Shown piece after piece: positions 37,011 through 48,595 of a stretch of 64,000 nt of DNA. A program made the position numbers and the translations under genes. The notes beneath the pieces are model-generated. The model made no database searches. It worked only from the letters and a program-made list of their open reading frames with translations, and was not told where the DNA came from. The first letter of the stretch is position 1; every line of letters starts with the position of its first letter. The stretch spans positions 62,001 through 126,000 of the forward strand of contig NZ_JACIEK010000007.1 in NCBI RefSeq assembly GCF_014196835.1, written 5' to 3'. Source of the stretch: Aureimonas pseudogalii. Lineage in GTDB: Bacteria > Pseudomonadota > Alphaproteobacteria > Rhizobiales > Rhizobiaceae.

Positions 37011-37859
37011 TCAGACAACAGGCGCGCGGTCGGTCAGCCGGCGCCAAAGCACCCCGTCCGAGAAGGCGACCACCGCGCCGCCCGCATCGTCCGACACGAA
37101 GGCGATCTGCCCCGCACCGGTGCCTGCCGGCGGCAGGTCGGCCTTGGCGAAGGCGCGCAGCCGCAGCGTTCCCGCCACGTCCAGCGCGCAGACCGGCGTG
37201 CCGCCGCCGCCGAGCGCCACATGCCCCGTGGCGGCCTCCACCCGCAGCGCGTCGCGAAAGGCCGCGCCGTCAGCCGAGACGCGCAGCGCCAGGTCGTCGC
37301 TGCCCACCAGCCCGAACTCGGCGCGGCCCGAAAAGCCGGTCTGGAAGACCACCGAGGCGGTGCGCGACGTTGCCGCCTTGTTGATGACCTTGCGGGCGTC
37401 GCCGCTGCCGGGCGTGCGCGCATCGTACGTCAGAAGCTCGGCGTCGGCGGCGACCGTCAGGCGGTTGCCGTCGCTGGCGTCGGCATTGATGCCGAGCCGG
37501 CCGAGCCCTCGCGTCAGCGGCGCGGCCGACCAGTGCCCCTCGTGGCGCACGACAAGGCCGCCGCGGTCGCCGACATGGACGATCTGGCCCTCCACCGGCT
37601 CGACCTCGACGAAGGCACCGTTCTCGAAGAGCGCGAGCGCTCCCTCCTCCATCGCGCTCCAGCGCGGCCCCGCGCGCCCGGCCGGCAGAATGTAGAGATC
37701 GCCCTCCGCGGCGGAGACCGGTTCCTGCACCGTCGTCGCCGAGACCACGCGGGTCTGCACGAGCACGTCGAGACGGCGCAACGCCTCGTTGTGGGTCAGA
37801 TGCTTCAGGGCCTGCTGTGGCAGGAGATAGGGAAGAGCGAGACGCGAGGACGCATTCAT
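37011..37859 (-). CDS. DUF2793 domain protein
   Basis: 282 residues. Residues 8-110 match the DUF2793 pattern: [27 protein letters not shown], then [10 protein letters not shown] and [22 protein letters not shown]. The rest is beta-rich and Gly/Ala-rich, ending [17 protein letters not shown]. No signal peptide. From memory, DUF2793 proteins occur in prophages and among head-spike genes of the Rhodobacter gene transfer agent, where they help binding to the cell capsule. No capsid or tail gene is near, so this is an orphan. Function unknown. Confidence 0.78.
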
Positions 37860-38168
37860 GCGGGAACTCCGGTTGGACGAGGCCGCAGTCTAGGATGCGC
37901 CTGGAGATGCGGGGATAGATCGGTGCGAAGACCGGCCCTCGCCTCGCAAGGAGGCCGACGTCTGGAGCGCTGTAACCTGCTCGCCACAGTTGCATTTGGT
38001 TCCCGCAAAAGATGCAATTTTTAGTTGCAGGAGCGATGAGAAATATGGCCCTGTCACCTCCAGCAACCTGCCGCAGCGGCAGATCATCCATCCTAGAAGC
38101 ATGCCGTCTCGCCGCGAAGGTTTCGCGACGCGAACTGGCGTGACGTCGAGGGAACCGGGAGAGCCGAC
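37860..38168. promoter_or_regulatory. Divergent regulatory gap before the surface cassette
   Basis: 309 bases without a gene. The stretch 37981-38050 is markedly AT-rich for this genome and contains TTGCAT (37990-37995) and ATGCAA (38012-38017) as an inverted repeat, plus a further TTGCA at 38025. A GGGAG ribosome-binding site precedes the ATG at 38169. The promoter of the cassette is likely here, but I cannot place -35/-10 boxes with confidence. Confidence 0.4.
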
Positions 38169-38636
38169 ATGGGCAGAGTGCGACGGACGGGGACGGTTTT
38201 GCTGTCGATCGCATCGATGCTCGGCGCGTCGGTGCCGTCCCTGGCGCAGAACACCGTCAGCCCAGCCTCCGACTGGAACGGAAACTACGGGTTTTCTTCG
38301 ACCGCCGACAAGAACCTCCGACTGCTGCAGACCGACGTGCTGCGCAAGAACGAGGAGGGCTACTACGAGTCGCTGGGCAAGACGCAGATCACCTCCAACA
38401 ACATCATCCACTACGGCGACGAGATCGGCACGCAGACGAACAAGACCGTCAACGACATCGAGCAGCAGACCACTGCCATCGGCGCGGTGAACAACTCCAC
38501 GAACAACATCGACATTTCCGGCCGTGGCAACATCAACGTGGCGACGAGCAACGAGGCGACGTCGCGCGGCTGCCAGGACGGGCATGTGTCCATCGACTCC
38601 TCCCCGGCCTCCGCCGCGCTGCCGACCTGCAACTGA
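38169..38636 (+). CDS. hfaA: Secreted Asn/Thr-rich protein, probable HfaA-like holdfast anchor
   Basis: 155 residues. Signal peptide (about 1-26, SLA-QN), then a mature part rich in Asn, Thr, Ser and Ile: DWNGNYGFSSTADKNLRLLQ, TSNNIIHYGDEIGTQTNKTV, NNSTNNIDISGRGNINVATS. Two Cys (135 and 154) flank the C-terminus. Composition and the place right before a CsgG/HfaB gene resemble HfaA of Caulobacter, a surface protein that anchors the polysaccharide holdfast. The HfaA name is an inference from context and pattern, not a certain homology. Eight bases separate it from the next gene. Confidence 0.6.
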   Translation: MGRVRRTGTVLLSIASMLGASVPSLAQNTVSPASDWNGNYGFSSTADKNLRLLQTDVLRKNEEGYYESLGKTQITSNNIIHYGDEIGTQTNKTVNDIEQQTTAIGAVNNSTNNIDISGRGNINVATSNEATSRGCQDGHVSIDSSPASAALPTCN

Positions 38637-38644
38637 GGCGTGCA

Positions 38645-39712
38645 ATGCGATCCCTTGCGCCCCGTCTCGTCTCCCTCTTCGCCGCGCTCGCCGGCCTCTC
38701 GGCCTGCGCCGGGGCGCCCGGCGTCGCGGGATCGACGAGCAACGCCAAGCTGGTCCAGGGGCCGCCGATCAGCGACATCGTGACCCCGTTCGACAAGGCG
38801 CTCACCTGCCTCAACGGGCGCATCGTGCGCAAGCTCGTCTTCTCGGTGGGCGCGGTGCTCGACCAGACCGGCAAGGAGAGCTTCACCGACGGCGGCGTCG
38901 GCAAGTTCGTGACGCAGGGCGCCGGCGACATGATCCAGTCGGCGCTGTTCAAGGCCGGGGCGACCGTGGTCAACCGGCGCGACCCGCGCGTGATGACCAC
39001 CGAGGCCGAATGGCGGATCCGCGACACGACGCGTCAGATCCCCTCGAACTTCTACATTACCGGCTCGATCAACTCGCTCGACTTCATCCCCGGCAGCGGC
39101 GCCGAGGTGGAGGTGGCCGGCGTCGGGGCGAAATACCGGCAGAACCGCATTCTCGTCGGGCTCGATCTCGCGATGACCGACGCCAATTCTGGGCTGATCG
39201 TCGCCAACGTGCCGTTGCAGAAGCAGATCTTCGCCTCGGAAGCGGGGATCGGCGTCGGACGCTTCATCGGCGACCAGCTGACCAACATCGATTTTGGCGG
39301 GCGGGAGCGCGAGGCGATCCATTTCGCGCTGCGCCAGATGCTCAATCTCGCGACCTTCGAACTGCTGACGCAGGTCATGGCCGCCAACAATTTCGCAGAC
39401 TGCCGCACCTTCGTCGATCGCGGCCATGGCTATGTCGACCACACCCGTACCGCCGAGGCGGTGGCAGCGCTCGCCAAGGCGAAGGCCGCGGCCAAGGCCG
39501 TCGGCGCCCCGCCGCCCGGCGTCGCCGCGCCGATCCCGCCGGGATCGCGCACGCCCGCCGGCCCCGCCTCGATGCCGAGTGCGGCGCCCGCCGCGGCGCG
39601 AGCGGAGAAACCCTATTCCGGCGCCAGCGGCAGCTTCCCGGGAAGCGGCGGCGGCAAGGCGGAAACCGAGACCACGGAGCAGGCGAAGGCTCAGGCCATC
39701 CTGACCCAATGA
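38645..39712 (+). CDS. hfaB: CsgG/HfaB family outer-membrane secretion lipoprotein
   Basis: 355 residues. Lipoprotein signal ending at lipobox LSAC (Cys21), then a CsgG domain (about 40-270): ISDIVTPFDKALTCL, FVTQGAGDMIQSALFKAGATVVNR, ITGSINSLDF and VGLDLAMTDANSGLIVANVPL. CsgG forms a nonameric pore that exports curli subunits; HfaB is its Caulobacter counterpart, needed for HfaA and HfaD to reach the surface. The last 75 residues are a Pro/Ala/Ser-rich tail. The two genes of secreted proteins around it are its likely clients. A 10-base-pair hairpin follows its stop. Confidence 0.85.
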   Translation: MRSLAPRLVSLFAALAGLSACAGAPGVAGSTSNAKLVQGPPISDIVTPFDKALTCLNGRIVRKLVFSVGAVLDQTGKESFTDGGVGKFVTQGAGDMIQSALFKAGATVVNRRDPRVMTTEAEWRIRDTTRQIPSNFYITGSINSLDFIPGSGAEVEVAGVGAKYRQNRILVGLDLAMTDANSGLIVANVPLQKQIFASEAGIGVGRFIGDQLTNIDFGGREREAIHFALRQMLNLATFELLTQVMAANNFADCRTFVDRGHGYVDHTRTAEAVAALAKAKAAAKAVGAPPPGVAAPIPPGSRTPAGPASMPSAAPAAARAEKPYSGASGSFPGSGGGKAETETTEQAKAQAILTQ

Positions 39713-39718
39713 CGAATT

Positions 39719-39745
39719 CGGCGGAGCGCTGGAACCGCTCCGCCG
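39719..39745 (+). terminator. Hairpin between hfaB and the repeat-protein gene
   Basis: Perfect 10-base-pair GC stem (arms 39719-39728 and 39736-39745), 7-base loop, starting 7 bases after the hfaB stop and lacking a T tract. It could lower read-through into the downstream gene or mark a processing or stability site, allowing different amounts of exporter and substrate. Confidence 0.55.
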
Positions 39746-39836
39746 ACCGACAGGGCTCTCTCGAACGACCTGTCCAACCATCGAGATCGCCGACAGGGAG
39801 CCGGCACGTCTCGGGAAACAAAGCTGGAGCTAACGA

Positions 39837-40706
39837 ATGAAAACTCTCTTCGCAATCGGCGCGTCGGCGCTGGTCATGGGTCTCGCCTCGGTCGGCGGCG
39901 CGCAGGCGCAGGCGCTTCCCGCCCTGCAGGACACGCTCGGCGCCAACCTGCTCACGCTGCAGTCGCAGTTCGGCAACGGCAACTGGGTCAACGAGGCCGT
40001 CAACATCGGCGCCATCAACGGCGCGGTGACGCTGGGCCAGGCCGGCGCCGAGTCGATCACCAACATCGACCTGCCGACGGTGGACCTCAACGTTCAGGCG
40101 GCGCTCGGCGCCGGTCTGACGGTCATCCCGCCGACGGCCGCCATCGCCGGCGCCGGCGAAGTCGATCTGGCAGTGAACCTCGGCCAGATCGACCAGACGG
40201 TCCGCACGATCGGCGGGATCGCCAGCTCGGACGAGATCTCGACCACGGTTCTCGGCGCGGTCAACACCGGCGACATCGCGTCCGTCGGCTCCGCCACCGC
40301 CGTGCGCGCGACGAACCAGACCACCATCGCCACCGGCAGCACCTTCACCAGCGTGACGGCGGCCTCGGAAGCGGCGGCGAGAACGTCGAACACTGCCTCC
40401 TCGGCCGCGGCCTCGCAGGAACTCGTCGCCGCGGTGACCGGCCCGACCGCCACCGTCACCAACTCGGTGGAGACCCTCTACAACGGCCCGCTGCAGGACG
40501 TGTACGCCAACAACCGCGCCTTCAACGTCGGCGCCATCAACGGCGCTGTCACCGGCATCGCCAACAACATGGATCTCGCGGGCATCTCGACCACGGTCCT
40601 CGGCGCCGTCAACACCGGCACGATCTCGATGGGCTACAGCGGCGCTGCCTTCAACGCCGCGCAGGCCGCCACGAACGCCGTCACCAACCAGGTCACCGGC
40701 CAGTAA
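39837..40706 (+). CDS. Secreted curlin-like repeat protein, possible HfaD counterpart
   Basis: 289 residues, no Cys, rich in Ala, Gly, Thr, Asn and Val. Signal peptide about 1-25 (AQAQ-ALP). Repeats are internal: NIGAINGAVT at 56-65 and NVGAINGAVT at 230-239; ISTTVLGAVNTGDI at 134-147 and ISTTVLGAVNTGTI at 250-263. A middle Ala/Ser/Thr segment (170-205) separates the halves. Alternating hydrophobic residues with N-x-G turns suit a beta-solenoid or amyloid fold, as in curlins. In Caulobacter, HfaD is the other HfaB client. HfaD homology itself is not proven from sequence. Confidence 0.65.
   Translation: MKTLFAIGASALVMGLASVGGAQAQALPALQDTLGANLLTLQSQFGNGNWVNEAVNIGAINGAVTLGQAGAESITNIDLPTVDLNVQAALGAGLTVIPPTAAIAGAGEVDLAVNLGQIDQTVRTIGGIASSDEISTTVLGAVNTGDIASVGSATAVRATNQTTIATGSTFTSVTAASEAAARTSNTASSAAASQELVAAVTGPTATVTNSVETLYNGPLQDVYANNRAFNVGAINGAVTGIANNMDLAGISTTVLGAVNTGTISMGYSGAAFNAAQAATNAVTNQVTGQ
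40236..40625 (+). repeat. Two-copy coding repeat in the curlin-like gene
   Basis: The 14-codon unit at 40236-40277 recurs at 40584-40625 with only a few base changes, mostly in third positions. A second pair, at 40002-40031 and 40524-40553, encodes N-[IV]-GAINGAVT. The spacing shows partial internal duplication of the gene rather than a tandem array. Confidence 0.75.
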
Positions 40707-40899
40707 GGCACAAGGACCGCGAGGGATGGGGCGGCTCGCTCCGCTCCGTCCCCGCCTGCCCCCTCTCCGCCCTCTACTCGCCCCATCGCCGCCGGTCGTC
40801 CCGGTCGCGGCATTGGCTTGGCGCGGCGGGACCCCACCCACAACAGCCGGCGCGTCTCCACGCTGTCGGACACGAACGAGACCGCTCGGAGCTGATGTC

Positions 40900-42141
40900 G
40901 TGACCAAACTCTTCCTCGCCCTCGCCGCCTCCACCATCGCCGGCTCCGCGCTCGCCGCCGACATCGTCGACGATCCCCCGCCCGAGCCGCCCGTCGCCCT
41001 CGTGCCCGTCTTCTCCTGGACCGGCGCCTATGTCGGCGCGCAGGCGGGCGGATCGTTCAACGACGGATCGAGCAACATCCCCTCGTCCTTCGTCTTCATT
41101 CCCGGCATCGCCGCGACGCCCGGCCGGCCTGCCGTTCCCGGCACGCCGGGCACGCCTGCCGTTCCCGCCACTCCCGGCAATCCCGGATCGCCTGCGGTTC
41201 CCGGCACGCCGGGATCGCCGGGCACCCCCGGCACGCCCGCCGTGTTCGGCACGCTCGAATATTCCTGCGCCGCCGCCGGCGCGGGCGCGGCGGGCGCCGG
41301 TGCCTGCGCGGTTCAGTATCCCGACGGCAGCACCGGCCTCCTGACGCTGGAGCAGTTGTCCGCCGCCTATGCGAGCGCCGGCAATGCCGGGGCGGTCGGC
41401 GTCGCCGGCGAGTTCCAGGTGCTCGTCGCCGCGGCGACGCCGGGCACGCCGGCCGTACCCGCGACACCCGGCACCCCTGCCGTTCCTGCCACGCCCGGCA
41501 CGCCGGAGATCCCCGCGACGCCGGGAACGCCCGGCACGCCCGCGGTGCCGGGAACGCCGGGCACGCCGGACGCCACCTACGCCTATGATTTCGGCGCGGG
41601 CACCCGCGCCTACTCGCAGGACGACGACAGCTTCGCCGGCGGCGCGCATGTCGGCTACAACTACGCCTTCACGCCGCTCGCCGGAAACACGTTCGTGCTC
41701 GGCGTCGTCGGCGATCTCTCCTATGTCGACATCACGCGGGGCGCGGGCATCACAGACGGCATCCGGACGATCGGCGTGACGCAGGAGCTCGACACTCTCG
41801 CCACCGTTCGTCTCAAGGCCGGCGTCGGGCTCGACCGGTTCCTCGTCTACGGCACGGGCGGCGTCGCCTTCGGAAAGATCGAGACGAGCTTCGTCAATTC
41901 CGTCTTAGGCTCAAGTCTGCAGGACGAGGAGACGCGCGTCGGCTACGCCGTGGGCGCGGGCACCGACTACGCCCTCACCGACAATGTCCTCCTCGGCGTC
42001 GAGTATCTCTACACGAACCTCGGATCGTCGGACGCCGAGCAGGTCATCCCGCTCACCAACGGCGCGACGCTGACGACACGGCCGGACGAGGATTTCGACT
42101 TCCACACGGTCTGGGCCAAGGCCTCCTACCGCTTCAACTGA
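40900..42141 (+). CDS. Outer-membrane beta-barrel with long Pro-Gly-Thr repeat loop
   Basis: 413 residues from a GTG with GGAG 8 bases upstream. Signal peptide 1-19, then a first strand FSWTGAYVGAQAGGSF, the start of an Omp25/Omp31-type porin-like barrel. Residues about 60-240 form an insertion before the second strand (FAGGAHVGYNYAF). It contains two blocks of PGTPAVPATPG-type repeats (73-115 and 180-223) around a 65-residue segment with two Cys (123, 136). The barrel then continues normally and ends ASYRFN. The insert replaces the first outer loop, so the repeats should stand on the cell surface. The cassette context suggests an adhesion role. Confidence 0.8.
   Translation: MTKLFLALAASTIAGSALAADIVDDPPPEPPVALVPVFSWTGAYVGAQAGGSFNDGSSNIPSSFVFIPGIAATPGRPAVPGTPGTPAVPATPGNPGSPAVPGTPGSPGTPGTPAVFGTLEYSCAAAGAGAAGAGACAVQYPDGSTGLLTLEQLSAAYASAGNAGAVGVAGEFQVLVAAATPGTPAVPATPGTPAVPATPGTPEIPATPGTPGTPAVPGTPGTPDATYAYDFGAGTRAYSQDDDSFAGGAHVGYNYAFTPLAGNTFVLGVVGDLSYVDITRGAGITDGIRTIGVTQELDTLATVRLKAGVGLDRFLVYGTGGVAFGKIETSFVNSVLGSSLQDEETRVGYAVGAGTDYALTDNVLLGVEYLYTNLGSSDAEQVIPLTNGATLTTRPDEDFDFHTVWAKASYRFN
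41116..41568 (+). repeat. Pro-Gly-Thr coding repeats (two blocks)
   Basis: Blocks at 41116-41244 and 41437-41568 encode degenerate units of PGTPAVPATPG type, collagen-like in having Gly and Pro at short intervals, but with a Pro-Gly-Thr-Pro rhythm rather than strict Gly-X-Y. DNA units vary in third positions, so the repeat is kept at protein level. Confidence 0.85.
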
Positions 42142-42240
42142 TGCGAGCGCCGCGGCCTTGCCCGGGTCGCGGCGCCCGATCCCCAATGGGGATCGACCCG
42201 TTCGGGCCCCGGCATCCTGTCCTGCAGCCGGGGTTCGATC

Positions 42241-42275
42241 GCGAAGGCGGACCGGCCTTCCCGGTCCGCCTTCGC
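42241..42275. terminator. Bidirectional terminator
   Basis: Perfect 15-base-pair stem (arms 42241-42255 and 42261-42275) with a 5-base loop, between the convergent barrel gene and the oxidoreductase gene. No long T tract on either side, but the stem is the strongest hairpin seen in the window. Confidence 0.8.
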
Positions 42276-42279
42276 AGCC

Positions 42280-45200
42280 CTATTCCGCCGCCGCCGGGAG
42301 CGGCGCGACCCTCTTGGCAGGCACGTCGCCCGCCTCGAAGCGGCGCCAGAGATCGGCGGTCGCGCCCCTTGCCTTCTCGCGGTTCTCCGCCTTCACCGGC
42401 CCGAAGCCGCGCACCGAGAGGGGCAGCCGCAGCAGCTCGATCGCGGCCTCGCGGTCGCCCCGCCTCCAGCCGGCCAGCACCCGCTCCACGTCGCCCTCGA
42501 ACGCCGCGACGTCGGCCCGTTCCGCGCGCCGCTCAACCGTGTGGCCGAACGGGTCGAAGGGCGTTCCGCGTAGCACCTTGCCGTGCTTCAGCCATCCGAA
42601 GACCCGCAGCATCCAGCCACCGAAGACGCGTTTCTTCGGCCGGCCCTTGCCATCCAGGCCGCCGGCAAGGAGCGGCGGCGCCAGATGGAAGCGCAGGCCC
42701 TTCACCCCCTCGAACTCGGCCTCCAGCATCGCCGCGAAGCGCCCGTCCGTGTAGAGCCGCGCCACCTCGTACTCGTCCTTGATCGCCAGCAGCCTGGCGT
42801 AGCTCTCGGCGGCCGCGCGCGTCAGCGCGAGATCGCCGGTGGCCATGCGCACGCGCGCCACCAGCGCGAGATAGCGGTTCCGCAGGCGGGCGTCGCCATA
42901 GGCTGCGAGGAACGCGGCGCGGTGCTCGATCAACTCGTCCAGCCCCATGTCGGCGAGAGTCCTGCGCGCCGGGGCGTCGTCATGGACCGCCCGCGCCACC
43001 GCGTCCGGGTCCTCGGCGGCGAGGCGCCCCCAGTCGAAAGCGGTCTCGTTCTCCGCCACCGCGACGCCGTTCAGCGCGATGGCCTCGCGGATCGAGGCGA
43101 GCCGCAGCGGCACGAGGCTGCGCTGCCAGGCAAAGCCCAGCAGCATCACGTTGGTGGCGATGGCGTCGCCCGTCAGCGCCTCGGCGATGGCGGTCATGTT
43201 GACGAAGTCGCTTTCGTCGCGGACGCTGCGGCGCAGCGCCGAGCCGACCAGCGTGCGGCGGAAGTCGAAGTCGGGATTGCGCACGAACTCGGCCACCGGC
43301 GTCAGATGCGTGTTGACGACGGCGCGCGTGCGCTCGTTCGAGACGAGCGCGGCGGCGTCCTTCGAGGCCGCCACCACGTCGTCGGCGGCGATCAGGAGAT
43401 CGGCGCCGCCCGCGGCGATCCGCGCCGAGGTCACGTCCTCCGGTCGCGCGCCGAGGCGCACGTGGCTGAGCACCGCGCCGCCCTTCTGCGCAAGGCCCGC
43501 CATGTCGAGGATCAGCGCGCCGCGCCCGTCGAGATGGGCGGCCATGCCGATCAGCGCGCCGATCGTCAGCACGCCGGTTCCGCCGACGCCGGCGATCGCG
43601 ATGTTGTAGGGCCGCTCGATCTCGGCGGGGATCGCGGGCTCCGGCAGATGGGCGAGATCGGGCCGCGCCAGCGCCGCGCGCTTGCGGGGGCGGCCGCCCT
43701 CCACGGTCACGAAGGAGGGGCAGAAGCCCTTCACGCAGGAGAAGTCCTTGTTGCAGGAGGACTGGTTGATCTGCCGCTTGCGGCCCCATTCCGTCTCCAG
43801 CGGCTCCACCGAGATGCAGTTGGACTGCACCGAGCAGTCACCGCAGCCCTCGCAGACCGCGGGGTTGATGACGACGCGCCGGTCGGGGTCCTCCATCAGC
43901 CCGCGCTTGCGCCGACGCCGCTTCTCGGCGGCGCAGGTCTGGTCGTAGATCATCGCGGAGACGCCGGGCCTGGTCTTCAGGTCCGTCATCACCTCGTCCA
44001 CCGCGTCGCGGTGATGGATCGTGACGCCGGGCGCGAGATCGGCGGCGTGGTAGCGCTCAGGCTCCTCCGACAGGAGGACGATGGGCGAGACGCCCTCGCG
44101 ATGAAGCTGGTGACTGATCTTGGCGGGGTCCTGCTGCCCGTCCACGTGCTGGCCGCCGGTCATCGCCACGGCGTCGTTGTAAAGGATCTTGTAGGTGGCG
44201 TTGACGCCGGCCGCGACCGACTGGCGAATCGCGAGCTGGCCGGAATGGAAGTAGGTGCCGTCGCCGAGATTGACGAAGACATGCGCCTCGTCGGTGAAGG
44301 GCGCGGTGCCGACCCAGGCGACGCCCTCGCCGCCCATATGGCTGAAGAGCCGCGTCGAGCGGTCCATCCACGTCACCATGTAGTGGCAGCCGATGCCGGC
44401 CATGCCGCGGCTGCCCTCGGGCACCACGGTGGAAGAATTGTGCGGGCAGCCCGAGCAGAAGAAGGGCGTGCGGTTCACCGGCGGCACCAGAACCCGGCTC
44501 TCCTCGCGCCGCCGCGCGAAGAACGCGAGGCGCTCCTCGATGTGTCGGCGGAGCCCGTCGTCCAGACGAGGCAGACGCAGGATGCGCTCCCCGATGACCT
44601 TCGCGGCGACGCCGACGCTCAGTTCCTCGTGCAGCGACAGGACGGGATGATCCTCGTGGTCGAACTTGCCGACGATGCGCGGCCGCACGTCCGCCCGCCA
44701 GTTGAACAGCTGCTGCTTGATCTGGTTCTCGATGATCTCGCGGCGCTCCTCCACCACGAGGATCTCGTCCAGTCCCACCGAGAAGCGCCGCACGCCCTCG
44801 GGCTCCAGCGGCCAGGGCATGCCCACCTTGTAGAGCCGGAGGCCGATCGCATGCGCCCCGTCCTCGTCGATGCCGAGCTCCCGGAACGCCTGGCGCACGT
44901 CCTCGTAGGCCTTACCGGAGGCGATGATGCCGAGGCGGGCTTCGGGGCTGTCGAGCGTCACGCGGTCGATGCCGTTGGCGCGGGCGAACGCGATGGCGGC
45001 ATAGGGCTTGAGGCTCTGCATGCGCGCGTCCTGCGACCAGCGGTCGTCGGGCCAGCGCAGGTTCAGCCCGCCCTCGGGCATGTCGAAGTCGCCGGGCAGC
45101 AGGATCTCGCGCCGCTCGCCCGCCAGATCCACCGAAGCGGTGGTCTCCACCGTGTCGGCGATCACCTTCATGCCGACCCAGCAGCCGGAATAGCGCGACA

Positions 45201-45762
45201 TGGCGATGCCAAGCAGCCCCATCTCCACGAACTCGTGGACCGACGAGGGGTAGAGCACCGGCATGAGCGCCGCGCCGAAGGCGTGGTCGGACTGGTGTGG
45301 CACGGTGGAGGACTTGGCGCCATGGTCGTCGCCGGCGATGCAGAGGACGCCGCCCAGCGCCGCCGAGCCCGCCGCATTGCCGTGCTTGAACACATCGCCG
45401 GAGCGATCGACGCCCGGCCCCTTGCCGTACCAGAGGCCGACGACGCCGTCTTTTCGGGCGCCCGGCGAGAGGTGGAGCTGCTGCGAGCCCCAGACGGCGG
45501 TGGCCGCGAGATCCTCGTTGACGCCGGGCTGGAAGACCACGCCCTCGGCGTCGAGAATCGCCTTCTCCTTCATCAGCTGCTGGTCGTAACCGCCGAGCGG
45601 CGAGCCGCGATAACCGGAGATGAAGGCGCCGGTGTTCAGCCCCGCGGCCCGGTCGCGGCGCATCTGGACGATCGGCAGGCGCACGAGCGCCTGGATGCCG
45701 CTCATGAACACGCGCCCGGTCTCGGCGCGGTACTTGCGCTCGAGCTCGCCGTGATAGGCCAT
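42280..45762 (-). CDS. Fused indolepyruvate ferredoxin oxidoreductase
   Basis: 1160 residues, the normal size for the fused IorA-IorB type. It oxidatively decarboxylates aryl (or branched) 2-oxoacids to acyl-CoA, passing electrons to ferredoxin. In order: thiamine-diphosphate pyrimidine domain (GAFISGYRGSPLGGYDQQL), thiamine-diphosphate-binding domain (GIGCHYMV, GDGTYFHSGQLAIRQS), Fe-S binding cysteines near 635-690 (CEGCGDCSVQSNC and SSCNKDFSCVKGFCPSF), and the gamma domain from about 720 (IAGVGGTGVLTIGALIG), followed by a C-terminal DUF6537-like region. The Lrp gene just upstream on the same strand may control it. Confidence 0.92.
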   Translation of the reverse strand: MAYHGELERKYRAETGRVFMSGIQALVRLPIVQMRRDRAAGLNTGAFISGYRGSPLGGYDQQLMKEKAILDAEGVVFQPGVNEDLAATAVWGSQQLHLSPGARKDGVVGLWYGKGPGVDRSGDVFKHGNAAGSAALGGVLCIAGDDHGAKSSTVPHQSDHAFGAALMPVLYPSSVHEFVEMGLLGIAMSRYSGCWVGMKVIADTVETTASVDLAGERREILLPGDFDMPEGGLNLRWPDDRWSQDARMQSLKPYAAIAFARANGIDRVTLDSPEARLGIIASGKAYEDVRQAFRELGIDEDGAHAIGLRLYKVGMPWPLEPEGVRRFSVGLDEILVVEERREIIENQIKQQLFNWRADVRPRIVGKFDHEDHPVLSLHEELSVGVAAKVIGERILRLPRLDDGLRRHIEERLAFFARRREESRVLVPPVNRTPFFCSGCPHNSSTVVPEGSRGMAGIGCHYMVTWMDRSTRLFSHMGGEGVAWVGTAPFTDEAHVFVNLGDGTYFHSGQLAIRQSVAAGVNATYKILYNDAVAMTGGQHVDGQQDPAKISHQLHREGVSPIVLLSEEPERYHAADLAPGVTIHHRDAVDEVMTDLKTRPGVSAMIYDQTCAAEKRRRRKRGLMEDPDRRVVINPAVCEGCGDCSVQSNCISVEPLETEWGRKRQINQSSCNKDFSCVKGFCPSFVTVEGGRPRKRAALARPDLAHLPEPAIPAEIERPYNIAIAGVGGTGVLTIGALIGMAAHLDGRGALILDMAGLAQKGGAVLSHVRLGARPEDVTSARIAAGGADLLIAADDVVAASKDAAALVSNERTRAVVNTHLTPVAEFVRNPDFDFRRTLVGSALRRSVRDESDFVNMTAIAEALTGDAIATNVMLLGFAWQRSLVPLRLASIREAIALNGVAVAENETAFDWGRLAAEDPDAVARAVHDDAPARRTLADMGLDELIEHRAAFLAAYGDARLRNRYLALVARVRMATGDLALTRAAAESYARLLAIKDEYEVARLYTDGRFAAMLEAEFEGVKGLRFHLAPPLLAGGLDGKGRPKKRVFGGWMLRVFGWLKHGKVLRGTPFDPFGHTVERRAERADVAAFEGDVERVLAGWRRGDREAAIELLRLPLSVRGFGPVKAENREKARGATADLWRRFEAGDVPAKRVAPLPAAAE

Positions 45763-46527: not shown

Positions 46528-47499
46528 TCAAGCCCCGGGCGCGCTCCCGCGATCGATCGTCTGCACGCCGTCGGGGGCTGCCCCCGTCGCGGCGGCGCCG
46601 CGTGCCGTCGTCTGCACCTTCAACCGCTGCTCGCGCAGGAAGATGAAGACGCCCGACCCCGTGATGATCGCCGCGCCCACGAGCAGCGGTACGCTCGGCG
46701 TCTCGCCGAAGAGGAAGACGCCGAAGACGATGGCCCAGACGATGAGCGTGTACTGATAGGGCACCACGACGGAGGCCGGCGCGATCAAGAGCGAGCGGTT
46801 GACGCAGACATGGCCGCCCATCGACAGGATGCCGAGGAGCAGCAGGAAGGCGAGGTCGAAGGCCGGCGGCGTTACCCATTGCAGCGGGCTGAGCACGAGG
46901 CCGGCGAGGAGCGCCGCGCCCGTCTGCCAGACGATCAGCGTCGTCTCGCCGTCGGCCGCGAGAAAACGCGTGGTGATCATCATCACGGCATAGGCCATCG
47001 ATCCCGCGACCGCGATGAGCACCGGCCATCCCGCGCTCATGAGGTCGGGCCCGAGCGCCACGAGCACGCCGCCGAAGCCGACGAGCACCGCCGTCCACCG
47101 GATCCAGCCGACCTGCTCCTTCAGGACGAGCGCCGAAAGCGCAGTGACGTAGATCGGTCCGGCCAGATAGAAGGTCATCACGCTAGCGAGCGAGAGATGG
47201 CTGAGCGCCCAATAGAAGAGCGCGACCTCCAGCGTCGATCCGAACGCCCGGAGCGCATGCAGGCGCCGGTTGCGCGGCCGGGCGATCCGCGCCCAGCCAT
47301 CTCGCCAGACGAAGGGCGCGAGCACGAGAAGCGCCGCGATCGAGCGCACCAGCAGCACCTGCCCCACGGCGTAGCGATCCACCAGCCACTTGCCCATCGC
47401 GTCGTTGACCGAGAACAGGAACACGCCGACGAGCATGAAGCCGACACCGACGAGCGCGTTGCCGGAACGAACGGGAGAAGTGCGGGACGCGGACGACAT
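46528..47499 (-). CDS. EamA/DMT family permease
   Basis: 323 residues with about ten membrane segments and two EamA repeats (first GVGFMLVGVFLFSVNDAMGK, second VLIAVAGSMAYAVMMITTRF). The conserved ending of the first repeat, YLAGPIYVTALSALVLKEQV, is clear. Members export amino acids or other metabolites across the inner membrane; the substrate is not readable. It is located upstream of the Lrp gene on the same strand, which hints at amino-acid export. Start ATG at 47499. Confidence 0.9.
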   Translation of the reverse strand: MSSASRTSPVRSGNALVGVGFMLVGVFLFSVNDAMGKWLVDRYAVGQVLLVRSIAALLVLAPFVWRDGWARIARPRNRRLHALRAFGSTLEVALFYWALSHLSLASVMTFYLAGPIYVTALSALVLKEQVGWIRWTAVLVGFGGVLVALGPDLMSAGWPVLIAVAGSMAYAVMMITTRFLAADGETTLIVWQTGAALLAGLVLSPLQWVTPPAFDLAFLLLLGILSMGGHVCVNRSLLIAPASVVVPYQYTLIVWAIVFGVFLFGETPSVPLLVGAAIITGSGVFIFLREQRLKVQTTARGAAATGAAPDGVQTIDRGSAPGA

Positions 47500-47614
47500 G
47501 ATGGGGGATCGCAAGGGTTGGGAGTTCGAGCCGGACGCCCGCATCGGCCGCCGGCGACGGAGACTGGCACCAGCCCGTCGCCCGTAAGGCGTTACAACGC
47601 CCCGCCTGCCCGCT

Positions 47615-48265
47615 TCAAACGGTTTCCGTCCCTGACGATGCGATCTCCCCTTTGGCGAAGGGGCGGCTGAGATGGCGCGACCCCGCGAGGCCGAACCGCC
47701 AGGGTTGCTCCGCCGCCTTGCTGATGCCGATTCGCGCACCGACGAGGATCGGCACCGGTACTTCGTCGCCCTCCGTCAGACGAAAGGGCGGCTGCGACAG
47801 GTCGAGCCCGTCATGCGAGCGATCGAGGCCGAGCGCCTGCGCGAGTCGGCCCGGCCCGGCGCAGAGCCGGCGGGGGTCGGCCAAGCCTCGTCGCTCCACC
47901 ATGCGATCCAGCCCGAAGAGCGGCTCCAGCGCCCGGATCAGCACGGCGCTGCCGGGCTCGGCGCCATCGCACACGAAATTGAGGCACCAATGGATGCCAT
48001 AGGACCGGTAGACATAGGCATGGCCGACCGGCCCGAACATCGCGCGGTTGCGGAGCGTCTCGCCGCGAAACGAATGCGAGGCCGCGTCGTCGCGCCGGTA
48101 GGCCTCGGTCTCGACGATTCGTCCGCCGACGCCATCGACGGTGAGCGTCGAGCCGATCAGCCGGCGCGCCAGCGTCACCGCGTCGAGCGCGAAGACGGTG
48201 TTCGGCAGGCGATCGCCGTCCCCGGCAGCGGCAGTCTCAGCGGTCACGACACCCCTTCCCCGCAA
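47615..48265 (-). CDS. mpg: DNA-3-methyladenine glycosylase (AAG/MPG type)
   Basis: 216 residues. Removes alkylated purines in base-excision repair. [22 protein letters not shown] carries the catalytic Glu (in VETEAY), [21 protein letters not shown] the DNA-intercalating Tyr region, and AVLIRALEP and [13 protein letters not shown] the conserved C-terminal blocks. An internal GTG near codon 6 might be the true start. Monocistronic, 115 bases downstream lies the EamA gene on the same strand. Confidence 0.92.
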
Positions 48266-48338: not shown

Positions 48339-48437
48339 CGCGCCAGTTCCGCTGTCCAGAGGCCGGCGGGATGGATGGCCGTTCGCCCGCCGCAAGGCTT
48401 CGAACGGCTCGGGGGCCCAAGGCCCCATGGTTGGCAT

Positions 48438-48514
48438 GGCAGTGTAGCTCAGCTGGTTAGAGCGTCGGATTCATAACCCGAAGGTCGGTGGTTCAAGTCC
48501 ACCCACCGCCACCA
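48438..48514 (+). tRNA. tRNA-Met (CAU), elongator type
   Basis: 77 bases including the encoded CCA. D arm TAGCTCAGCTGGTTAGAGC, anticodon loop TTCATAA, T arm GGTGG-TTCAAGT-CCACC. The acceptor stem pairs GGCAGTG with CACCGCC, with one A-C mismatch at the fourth pair; the last anticodon-stem pair is also A-C. G1-C72 excludes the initiator. A CAU tRNA could also be an Ile-2 tRNA modified to lysidine; the sequence is closer to rhizobial elongator Met. Confidence 0.88.
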
Positions 48515-48595
48515 TTCTTCTCCCTGACGATCAATATCGAACTGGACTTGGCGAGTGCGGCCGGCACGATCGTGATCGCGTGCCGGCCCGTCATC

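Follow-up and report, generated by a model that had tools for sequence, protein, structure and literature searches.

The question raised by this locus is what kind of surface structure is built from four genes that lie on one strand at positions 38169-42141 of the 64,000-nucleotide stretch of Aureimonas pseudogalii DNA analysed here (the window), and whether the last of them, which encodes an outer-membrane barrel, belongs with the three before it. Those three encode a secreted protein (A), a CsgG-family lipoprotein (B) and a second secreted protein (D). As an earlier note on this DNA had described, the four genes share one direction and stand in close order, the barrel start being corrected to 40900, and they encode an exporter of the CsgG/HfaB type, its two secreted partners and a barrel that carries repeats, a description borne out by the profiles PF03783 and PF13505 and by signal peptides of A, D and the barrel that, like the lipobox of B, were judged by eye. 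The four-gene surface cassette is real, conserved and exchangeable. Its recurrence in ten species of Aureimonas and in another genus leaves chance no tenable role; its pore is of a known kind, and the partner proteins together with the barrel constitute a new arrangement. The explanation that we favour, and that we hold to be fairly probable, is that the four genes form an exchangeable cassette for a surface structure of the type VIII-like CsgG/HfaB kind. In what follows, G-numbers denote the genomes compared, G000 being the window's own, and L-numbers the loci fetched.

Profile searches with B and with the barrel were carried out in 21 Aureimonas genomes. The B profile matched 12 of them, ten with at least 543 bits (type 1) and two, G305 and G313, with divergent matches of at most 73 bits per piece (type 2). 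Among the matches listed, a barrel bearing a long insert was found in the same ten type-1 genomes (10/10) and in none of the 11 others; the lowest whole score was 453.9 bits, the match in G309 falling into two pieces of which the larger scored 551.5 bits. The barrel sits 1.1-1.9 kb downstream of the match of B on the same strand, and in G311 and G314 the cassette is divided between two contigs. The matches listed for the other 11 genomes covered the barrel domain (best 168.8 bits) or its N-terminal part, with the insert not covered. With kinship ignored, the association between B type and barrel has a Fisher p of 2.8e-6.

The position of the cassette was compared by reading 8.6 to 16 kb around AnmK, which is present in 21/21 Aureimonas genomes. 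Of the type-1 cassettes, nine, among them that of the window, are found between a DUF2793 gene and a gene that we presume to encode an EamA-type transporter, two further genes preceding the latter in the window and in G309; the tenth, in G304, lies beside AnmK, and DUF2793 and EamA were not detected there. In the two type-2 genomes the same slot holds, in the opposite direction, a different A-B-D set together with a peptidoglycan-binding protein, the type-2 D being about 1250 amino acids long with A-x-G-N repeats (L092 2274-7954; L093). The slot is empty in G308, G315 and G316, where DUF2793 adjoins EamA, and these empty slots in three species indicate that the barrel comes and goes with A-B-D. 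In the stretches read from the remaining six Aureimonas, neither the cassette nor DUF2793 was found near AnmK.

On a tree of AnmK, XdhS and XdhM, in which G301 stands without xdhS and xdhM, the type-1 state requires at least five changes, forced by supported branches; the pair test on this tree (5/5, p 0.0625) has its outcome by construction, B type and barrel agreeing in all 21 rows. The same flank markers group G305, of type 2, with G307 and G314, of type 1. Between G307 and G305, nucleotide identity is 90.8% up to DUF2793 and 87.2% from the EamA end onward, and nothing between these flanks was alignable at E 1e-10. Flanks so similar indicate that the whole cassette, barrel included, was replaced by the other A-B-D type. 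The idea that the DUF2793 type is tied to the cassette type was unsupported in one comparison, the left flank being about 91% identical between type-1 G307 and type-2 G305.

Protein distances among the ten type-1 genomes, with B truncated at contig ends in G311 and G314, give a finer picture. Median pairwise identity (%) was 73 for AnmK, 65 for DUF2793, 68 for EamA, 74 for B, 70 for the barrel (61 for its insert), 50 for A and 35.5 for D, the most variable of the four proteins between species. In G307 and G314, AnmK (96%), EamA (96%), DUF2793 (90%) and the barrel (92%) are far closer than A (42%), B (77%) and D (34%); in G310 and G312, AnmK (92%) and EamA (87%) are set against 56% for the barrel, 44% for A, 67% for B and 34% for D; all of the compared proteins show 88-97% identity in the pair G303 and G311. 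Pairwise distances are correlated among A, B and D (r 0.82-0.92) and uncorrelated with the flank markers (-0.16, 0.04 and -0.11, respectively), and those of the barrel correlate with B at 0.60 (p 0.007) and with the flank markers at 0.46 (p 0.02). When marker distance was removed, the barrel correlated at 0.66 with B, 0.55 with A and 0.50 with D. These correlations indicate that A-B-D is one exchanged unit and the barrel its semi-independent companion; as judged from them, A-B-D is a co-varying unit accompanied by the insert-bearing barrel.

Beyond this genus, the B profile matched 16 of 394 genomes of the family, six of them with at least 470 bits, namely five Aureimonas and G698, from another genus. 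The order A-B-D-barrel is kept in G698 at a different site, beside genes that we presume to be pyrB/pyrC, and no match to AnmK, DUF2793 or EamA was found in 13 kb around it. Its barrel is 43% identical over the barrel domain and carries an insert in the same place, an acidic one with 39 Asp in 190 residues, a net charge of -36 and two Cys. Thus the barrel, which the earlier note had allowed might not be conserved in relatives, travels with this type of B in all 11 loci scoring at least 470 bits (10 Aureimonas and G698). That it lies outside the known hfa systems also held, as it is no general part of such loci: a broadened profile at E 0.01, which unrelated barrels could escape, found it in none of 51 other fetched loci with a relative of B (type 2 and distant types included, the curli locus L097 left out, and some loci, L013/L014 and L111/L112, sharing a species or genome).

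These barrel-less arrangements include CsgG/HfaB loci of Rhodobacterales (Celeribacter, two metagenome-assembled genomes (MAGs), a Pararhodobacter MAG and, by position, Pacificitalea), which have the A-B-D core where it was read, a B 50-55% identical to that of the cassette and a D with TTxxGAxNTG repeats; they differ in that the barrel is absent by profile and in that some have two or three D genes, D-like genes in such number being found downstream of B in L011, L013 and L014. In L146 (5334-8449), on plasmid pDY25-D of Pacificitalea manganoxidans, a CsgG/HfaB gene lies between two hypothetical-protein genes, with no barrel; A and D were assigned there by position only, and the A-B-D core may accordingly be plasmid-borne.

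The barrel itself passes the profile of the OMP_b-brl family (PF13505; 54.8 bits, E 1.7e-14, gathering score 28.7), and with its barrel domain and signal peptide it resembles other PF13505 proteins, presumably of the Omp25/31-like kind. It is unlike them in an insert of about 160 residues, composed of two P-[G/A]-X arms and a tip with two cysteines, which lies between strands 1 and 2 and, with one strand ahead and seven behind, would by topology be the first surface loop. In the arms of ten species, with the triplet register set on Pro, this residue occupies 264 of 278 triplets and is followed by Gly in 149 and Ala in 98. The tip measures 61-73 amino acids and holds exactly two Cys in 9/9 species with both arms, the second arm of G312 having failed the run filter, and it has no Pfam match at E 1. 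The collagen profile PF01391 reaches 28.1 bits on the barrel, barely over its cut-off of 27.2. A collagen helix requires Gly at every third position; Gly at just 54% in the arms, where the near-fixed residue is Pro, is incompatible with it, and a collagen triple helix was rejected. Weak matches between the barrel profile and a C1q collagen peptide (E 0.007) or a tegument protein (E 0.009), and a match of an IgA-binding-protein model to the barrel (37 of 1700 bits), were set aside as low-complexity matches. In the structure model, whose mean predicted local distance difference test (pLDDT) score is 39, the barrel has eight long strands, with bridges at each third residue along both arms, which is only a hint that the insert may form two packed polyproline-type arms with small Gly/Ala faces. 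The two best-matching paralogues of the barrel in the window genome have no insert, and among 297 genomes of the order, with at most six candidates scored in each, no barrel besides the window's was matched across the insert at E 1e-30, a threshold that an insert like that of G698 would escape.

Protein B passes the Pfam CsgG model (PF03783; 45.2 bits, E 8.7e-12, gathering score 20.8), and the cysteine of its lipobox LSAC, Cys21, is almost invariant in the B alignment. The profile of the B family finds the CsgG chains of Escherichia coli at E about 2e-7, and B would, by this kinship, form an outer-membrane pore. Among named genomes its closest relatives are in Aureimonas (8 of 13 loci, at most 89% identity over the matched stretch). 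B also matches, with 98 bits, a phage protein family of unknown function, which agrees with the presence of HfaB/CsgG homologues in large phages of Caulobacter and Brevundimonas (nine records, two phages being represented twice; 30-32% identity; L148 2863-3708).

The candidate clients of this pore, A and D, are less readily placed. Mature A contains 13% Asn, 11% Thr and 11% Ser, carries the core WNGNYGFSSTADKNLRLLQTDVLRKNEEGYYESLGK and a single TTAIGAVN motif, and has no Pfam or NCBIfam match. D, which in its mature form has neither lysine nor cysteine, shows an internal repeat of 60 columns (residues 112-171 and 228-287; z = 5.1 against 60 shuffles), each copy containing TTVLGAVNTG; over the ten Aureimonas D proteins the repeat z-score ranges from 0.8 to 5.1. 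No Pfam or NCBIfam family lies above cut-off for D, nothing was found for it in the structure bank, and a phage-tube match was set aside (14.6 bits, cut-off 22.4). Two motif patterns, picked post hoc after the sequences had been inspected, were counted without the A protein and the second D (L011:4317-5000) of L011. TTxxGAxN is common to type-1 A and D, with 10 and 11 overlapping matches versus 0.0 and 0.1 in shuffles; it occurs in 5/8 type-1 A proteins, 5/8 type-1 D proteins, 6/6 Rhodobacterales D proteins and 0/2 Rhodobacterales A proteins. A-x-G-N is enriched in HfaA, HfaD-like, type-2 and other D proteins (e.g. 18 versus 2.1) and not in type-1 A (0 versus 0.9) or type-1 D (3 versus 3.6). 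In addition, profile comparison gave a 34-column core common to type-1 and type-2 A proteins, at 84% probability. The motifs and this core suggest a shared client style, kinship being not proven.

Two known systems offer themselves as identities for the cassette. It is possible to see in it a true holdfast anchor, that is, an hfaABD orthologue by which a polar polysaccharide would be fastened to the outer membrane and to which the barrel would add a further anchor that binds sugar. The order of a small secreted protein, a CsgG-family lipoprotein and a secreted repeat protein resembles HfaA-HfaB-HfaD of Caulobacter, HfaB (NF037935, 95.1 bits) is the best NCBIfam match and best named relative of B, and Wza/HfsD-type Poly_export proteins occur in 21/21 Aureimonas. 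However, these last are found with or without the cassette, so that there is no correlation and they are uninformative for a polar polysaccharide, and B lies far under the HfaB cut-off of 300 bits, which the B of L117 passes with 376.5, type-2 B reaching 215.7. A finds no match to the HfaA model (NF037934) at E 0.1, although the controls L120 and L131 pass its cut-off, and profile comparison by hhalign gives 13.8% for A against HfaA and 0.2% for D against the HfaD-like set. D has no match at E 0.1 to the HfaD model (NF037936), a weak test by which HfaD-like controls obtain 49 and 30 of 100 bits and one is unmatched; HfaD orthology of D is thus unsupported, and direct HfaA and HfaB orthology is rejected by NF037934 and NF037935. 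The Aureimonas locus furthermore adds the barrel and is exchanged as a unit, and we regard the holdfast anchor as quite unlikely. Somewhat more room, though still on the unlikely side, is left for a curli-like functional amyloid in which A and D polymerise into extracellular fibres. The surface localisation of HfaA and HfaD in Caulobacter is reported to depend on HfaB, and HfaA is reported as multimers resistant to sodium dodecyl sulphate (SDS) and heat (PMC6707917). As in curli, or type VIII secretion, a CsgG-family pore here accompanies small secreted proteins rich in Asn and Thr, together with Gly and Ala, one of which has internal repeats; unlike curli, neither A nor D has a curlin repeat (PF07012) at E 0.1, and no CsgE or CsgF match was found among seven proteins scanned (the four of the cassette and three flanking). 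The same 5.0-Mb genome, in which the window belongs to contig C7, has a separate, genuine csg locus on contig C16 (L097 5870-8785) that encodes curlin repeats together with CsgF and CsgG, strong CsgG matches (over 180 bits) being present in 3/21 Aureimonas (the window's, G308 and G316), and identity with curli was rejected. The HfaB score below cut-off, the lack of HfaA and HfaD model matches for A and D and the separate curli locus thus mark the cassette, as far as profiles can tell, as neither hfa nor csg proper. Of the earlier note's proposal of curli and hfaABD as relatives, then, the CsgG/HfaB-type exporter stands, PF03783 being passed, and direct identity does not, A being unmatched and HfaD, with its weak model, likewise.

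A different objection concerns the barrel, which could be an unrelated outer-membrane protein that merely shares the slot with A-B-D. Its distances follow the flank-marker tree, and in G307 and G314 it stays at 92% where A, B and D do not; a gap of 193 bp separates it from D, compared with 8 bp between A and B and 124 bp between B and D. On the other side stand the co-occurrence in 10/10 genomes through at least five changes on the tree, the recurrence of the order A-B-D-barrel at another locus in another genus, and the absence of such a barrel from type-2 loci and empty slots. We consider a hitch-hiking barrel unlikely, and on its distribution the barrel belongs to the gene set. Several observations nevertheless weigh against a barrel-bearing CsgG/HfaB cassette. 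G736 has an insert-type barrel with B not detected among five candidates scored per genome, and six Rhodobacterales loci (L011-L015 and L146) have no barrel by profile, so that the gene neighbourhood which the earlier note proposed to survey shows the barrel beside B in 11/11 loci and at the same time separable from it. The correlation of the barrel distances is only weak for A (0.40, p 0.07) and for D (0.39, p 0.08), D and the barrel are separated by an additional gene in G307 and G304, and the tree markers AnmK, XdhS and XdhM adjoin the slot itself. Neither A nor D has a functionally characterised homologue, the single sequence of B matches CsgG chains weakly (E 0.07), and the structure models are poor for the barrel (the mean pLDDT given above) and very poor for D (pLDDT 31).

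Returning to an exchangeable CsgG/HfaB-type cassette, export of A and D and a role in adhesion are inferred. We hypothesize that A and D leave the periplasm via the B pore and are retained on the cell surface, where they would form an adhesive fibre or an anchor; D, the most variable part, would make the outermost contact. The barrel would be inserted separately by the ordinary outer-membrane route and would display its two-cysteine tip on a two-legged stalk, where it might dock the A/D structure or its polysaccharide, or act as a second adhesin. Since the A-B-D proteins of G307 and G314 differ with the barrel nearly unchanged, it would more likely contact conserved parts than the variable face of D. 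A bolder proposal, which we put forward tentatively as a possibility, is a new modular surface organelle in which a fibre of A-B-D exported through the CsgG-type pore, with subunits swapped from species to species at a dedicated, serotype-like slot, stands on or beside a barrel with a disulphide-closed tip on a two-legged stalk; the repeat chemistry of the stalk could be exchanged in its entirety (P-[G/A]-X in Aureimonas, acidic Asp/Gly/Asn in the second genus), with the barrel and the tip cysteines kept.

Coordinates of the cassette, of the parts of the barrel insert and of the neighbouring genes in the window
Feature	Position	Strand	Description
Gene A	38169..38636	+	Secreted Asn/Thr/Ser-rich protein, 155 aa; probable exported subunit
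Gene B	38645..39712	+	Outer-membrane lipoprotein of the CsgG family, 355 aa, with lipobox Cys21; probably the export pore
Gene D	39837..40706	+	Secreted protein of 289 aa, rich in Ala, Thr, Gly and Asn; probable exported subunit of a fibre or adhesin
Barrel gene	40900..42141	+	Outer-membrane barrel of PF13505 type, probably with 8 strands; 413 aa, GTG start
Insert arm 1	41101..41244	+	Residues 68-115 of the barrel; 16 triplets, most of them P-[G/A]-X; by topology in the first surface loop
Insert tip between arms	41245..41439	+	65 aa, two Cys; barrel residues 116-180; no Pfam match
Insert arm 2	41440..41574	+	Residues 181-225 of the barrel; 15 triplets, most of them P-[G/A]-X
DUF2793 gene	37011..37859	-	Left border of slot; gene transfer agent tail-fibre family
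EamA-type transporter gene (presumed)	46528..47739	-	Right-hand flank; adjoins DUF2793 at empty sites
Indolepyruvate oxidoreductase gene	42280-45762		Between barrel and EamA gene in window

The GTG start of the barrel gene is preferred because an open reading frame from 40726 is too long by comparison with homologues and by the signal peptide. A sequence scan of 37700-42400 found no sigma-70-like promoter and no terminator-like site. The DUF2793 gene is placed outside the cassette because it is also found at the empty sites; the family is named as a gene transfer agent tail-fibre protein (PMC10883770). G000 and G309 share 68% identity in DUF2793, which is thus less conserved than AnmK (90%). 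The second gene between the barrel and the EamA gene is, we presume, an Lrp-like regulator. Further to the right, the tRNA-Met gene at 48438-48514 coincides with an 81-bp stretch identical in G316 (window 48437-48517), which indicates that the right flank stays in step past the slot. The products of the extra genes of G307 and G304 (L008 10328-10822; L087 8609-9109), from two distant Aureimonas, are secreted proteins of about 165 amino acids with 40% mutual identity and no Pfam match at E 1. Among the papers listed in literature searches of partial coverage, none deals with a cassette of the A-B-D-barrel kind or with this locus in Aureimonas, and passages from papers on curli or csgG, or on plant colonisation by Aureimonas, do not describe the locus (PMC3521004, PMC5017803, PMC3806328, PMC9781493).

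Our findings suggest that curli and holdfast anchors are not the only surface systems served by CsgG/HfaB pores, whose clients would share a style of motifs and not a clear kinship. If the proposed role is true, an exchangeable adhesin locus would explain how attachment could differ among close Aureimonas species, and the stalked barrel would represent a simple and testable design for display at the outer membrane.

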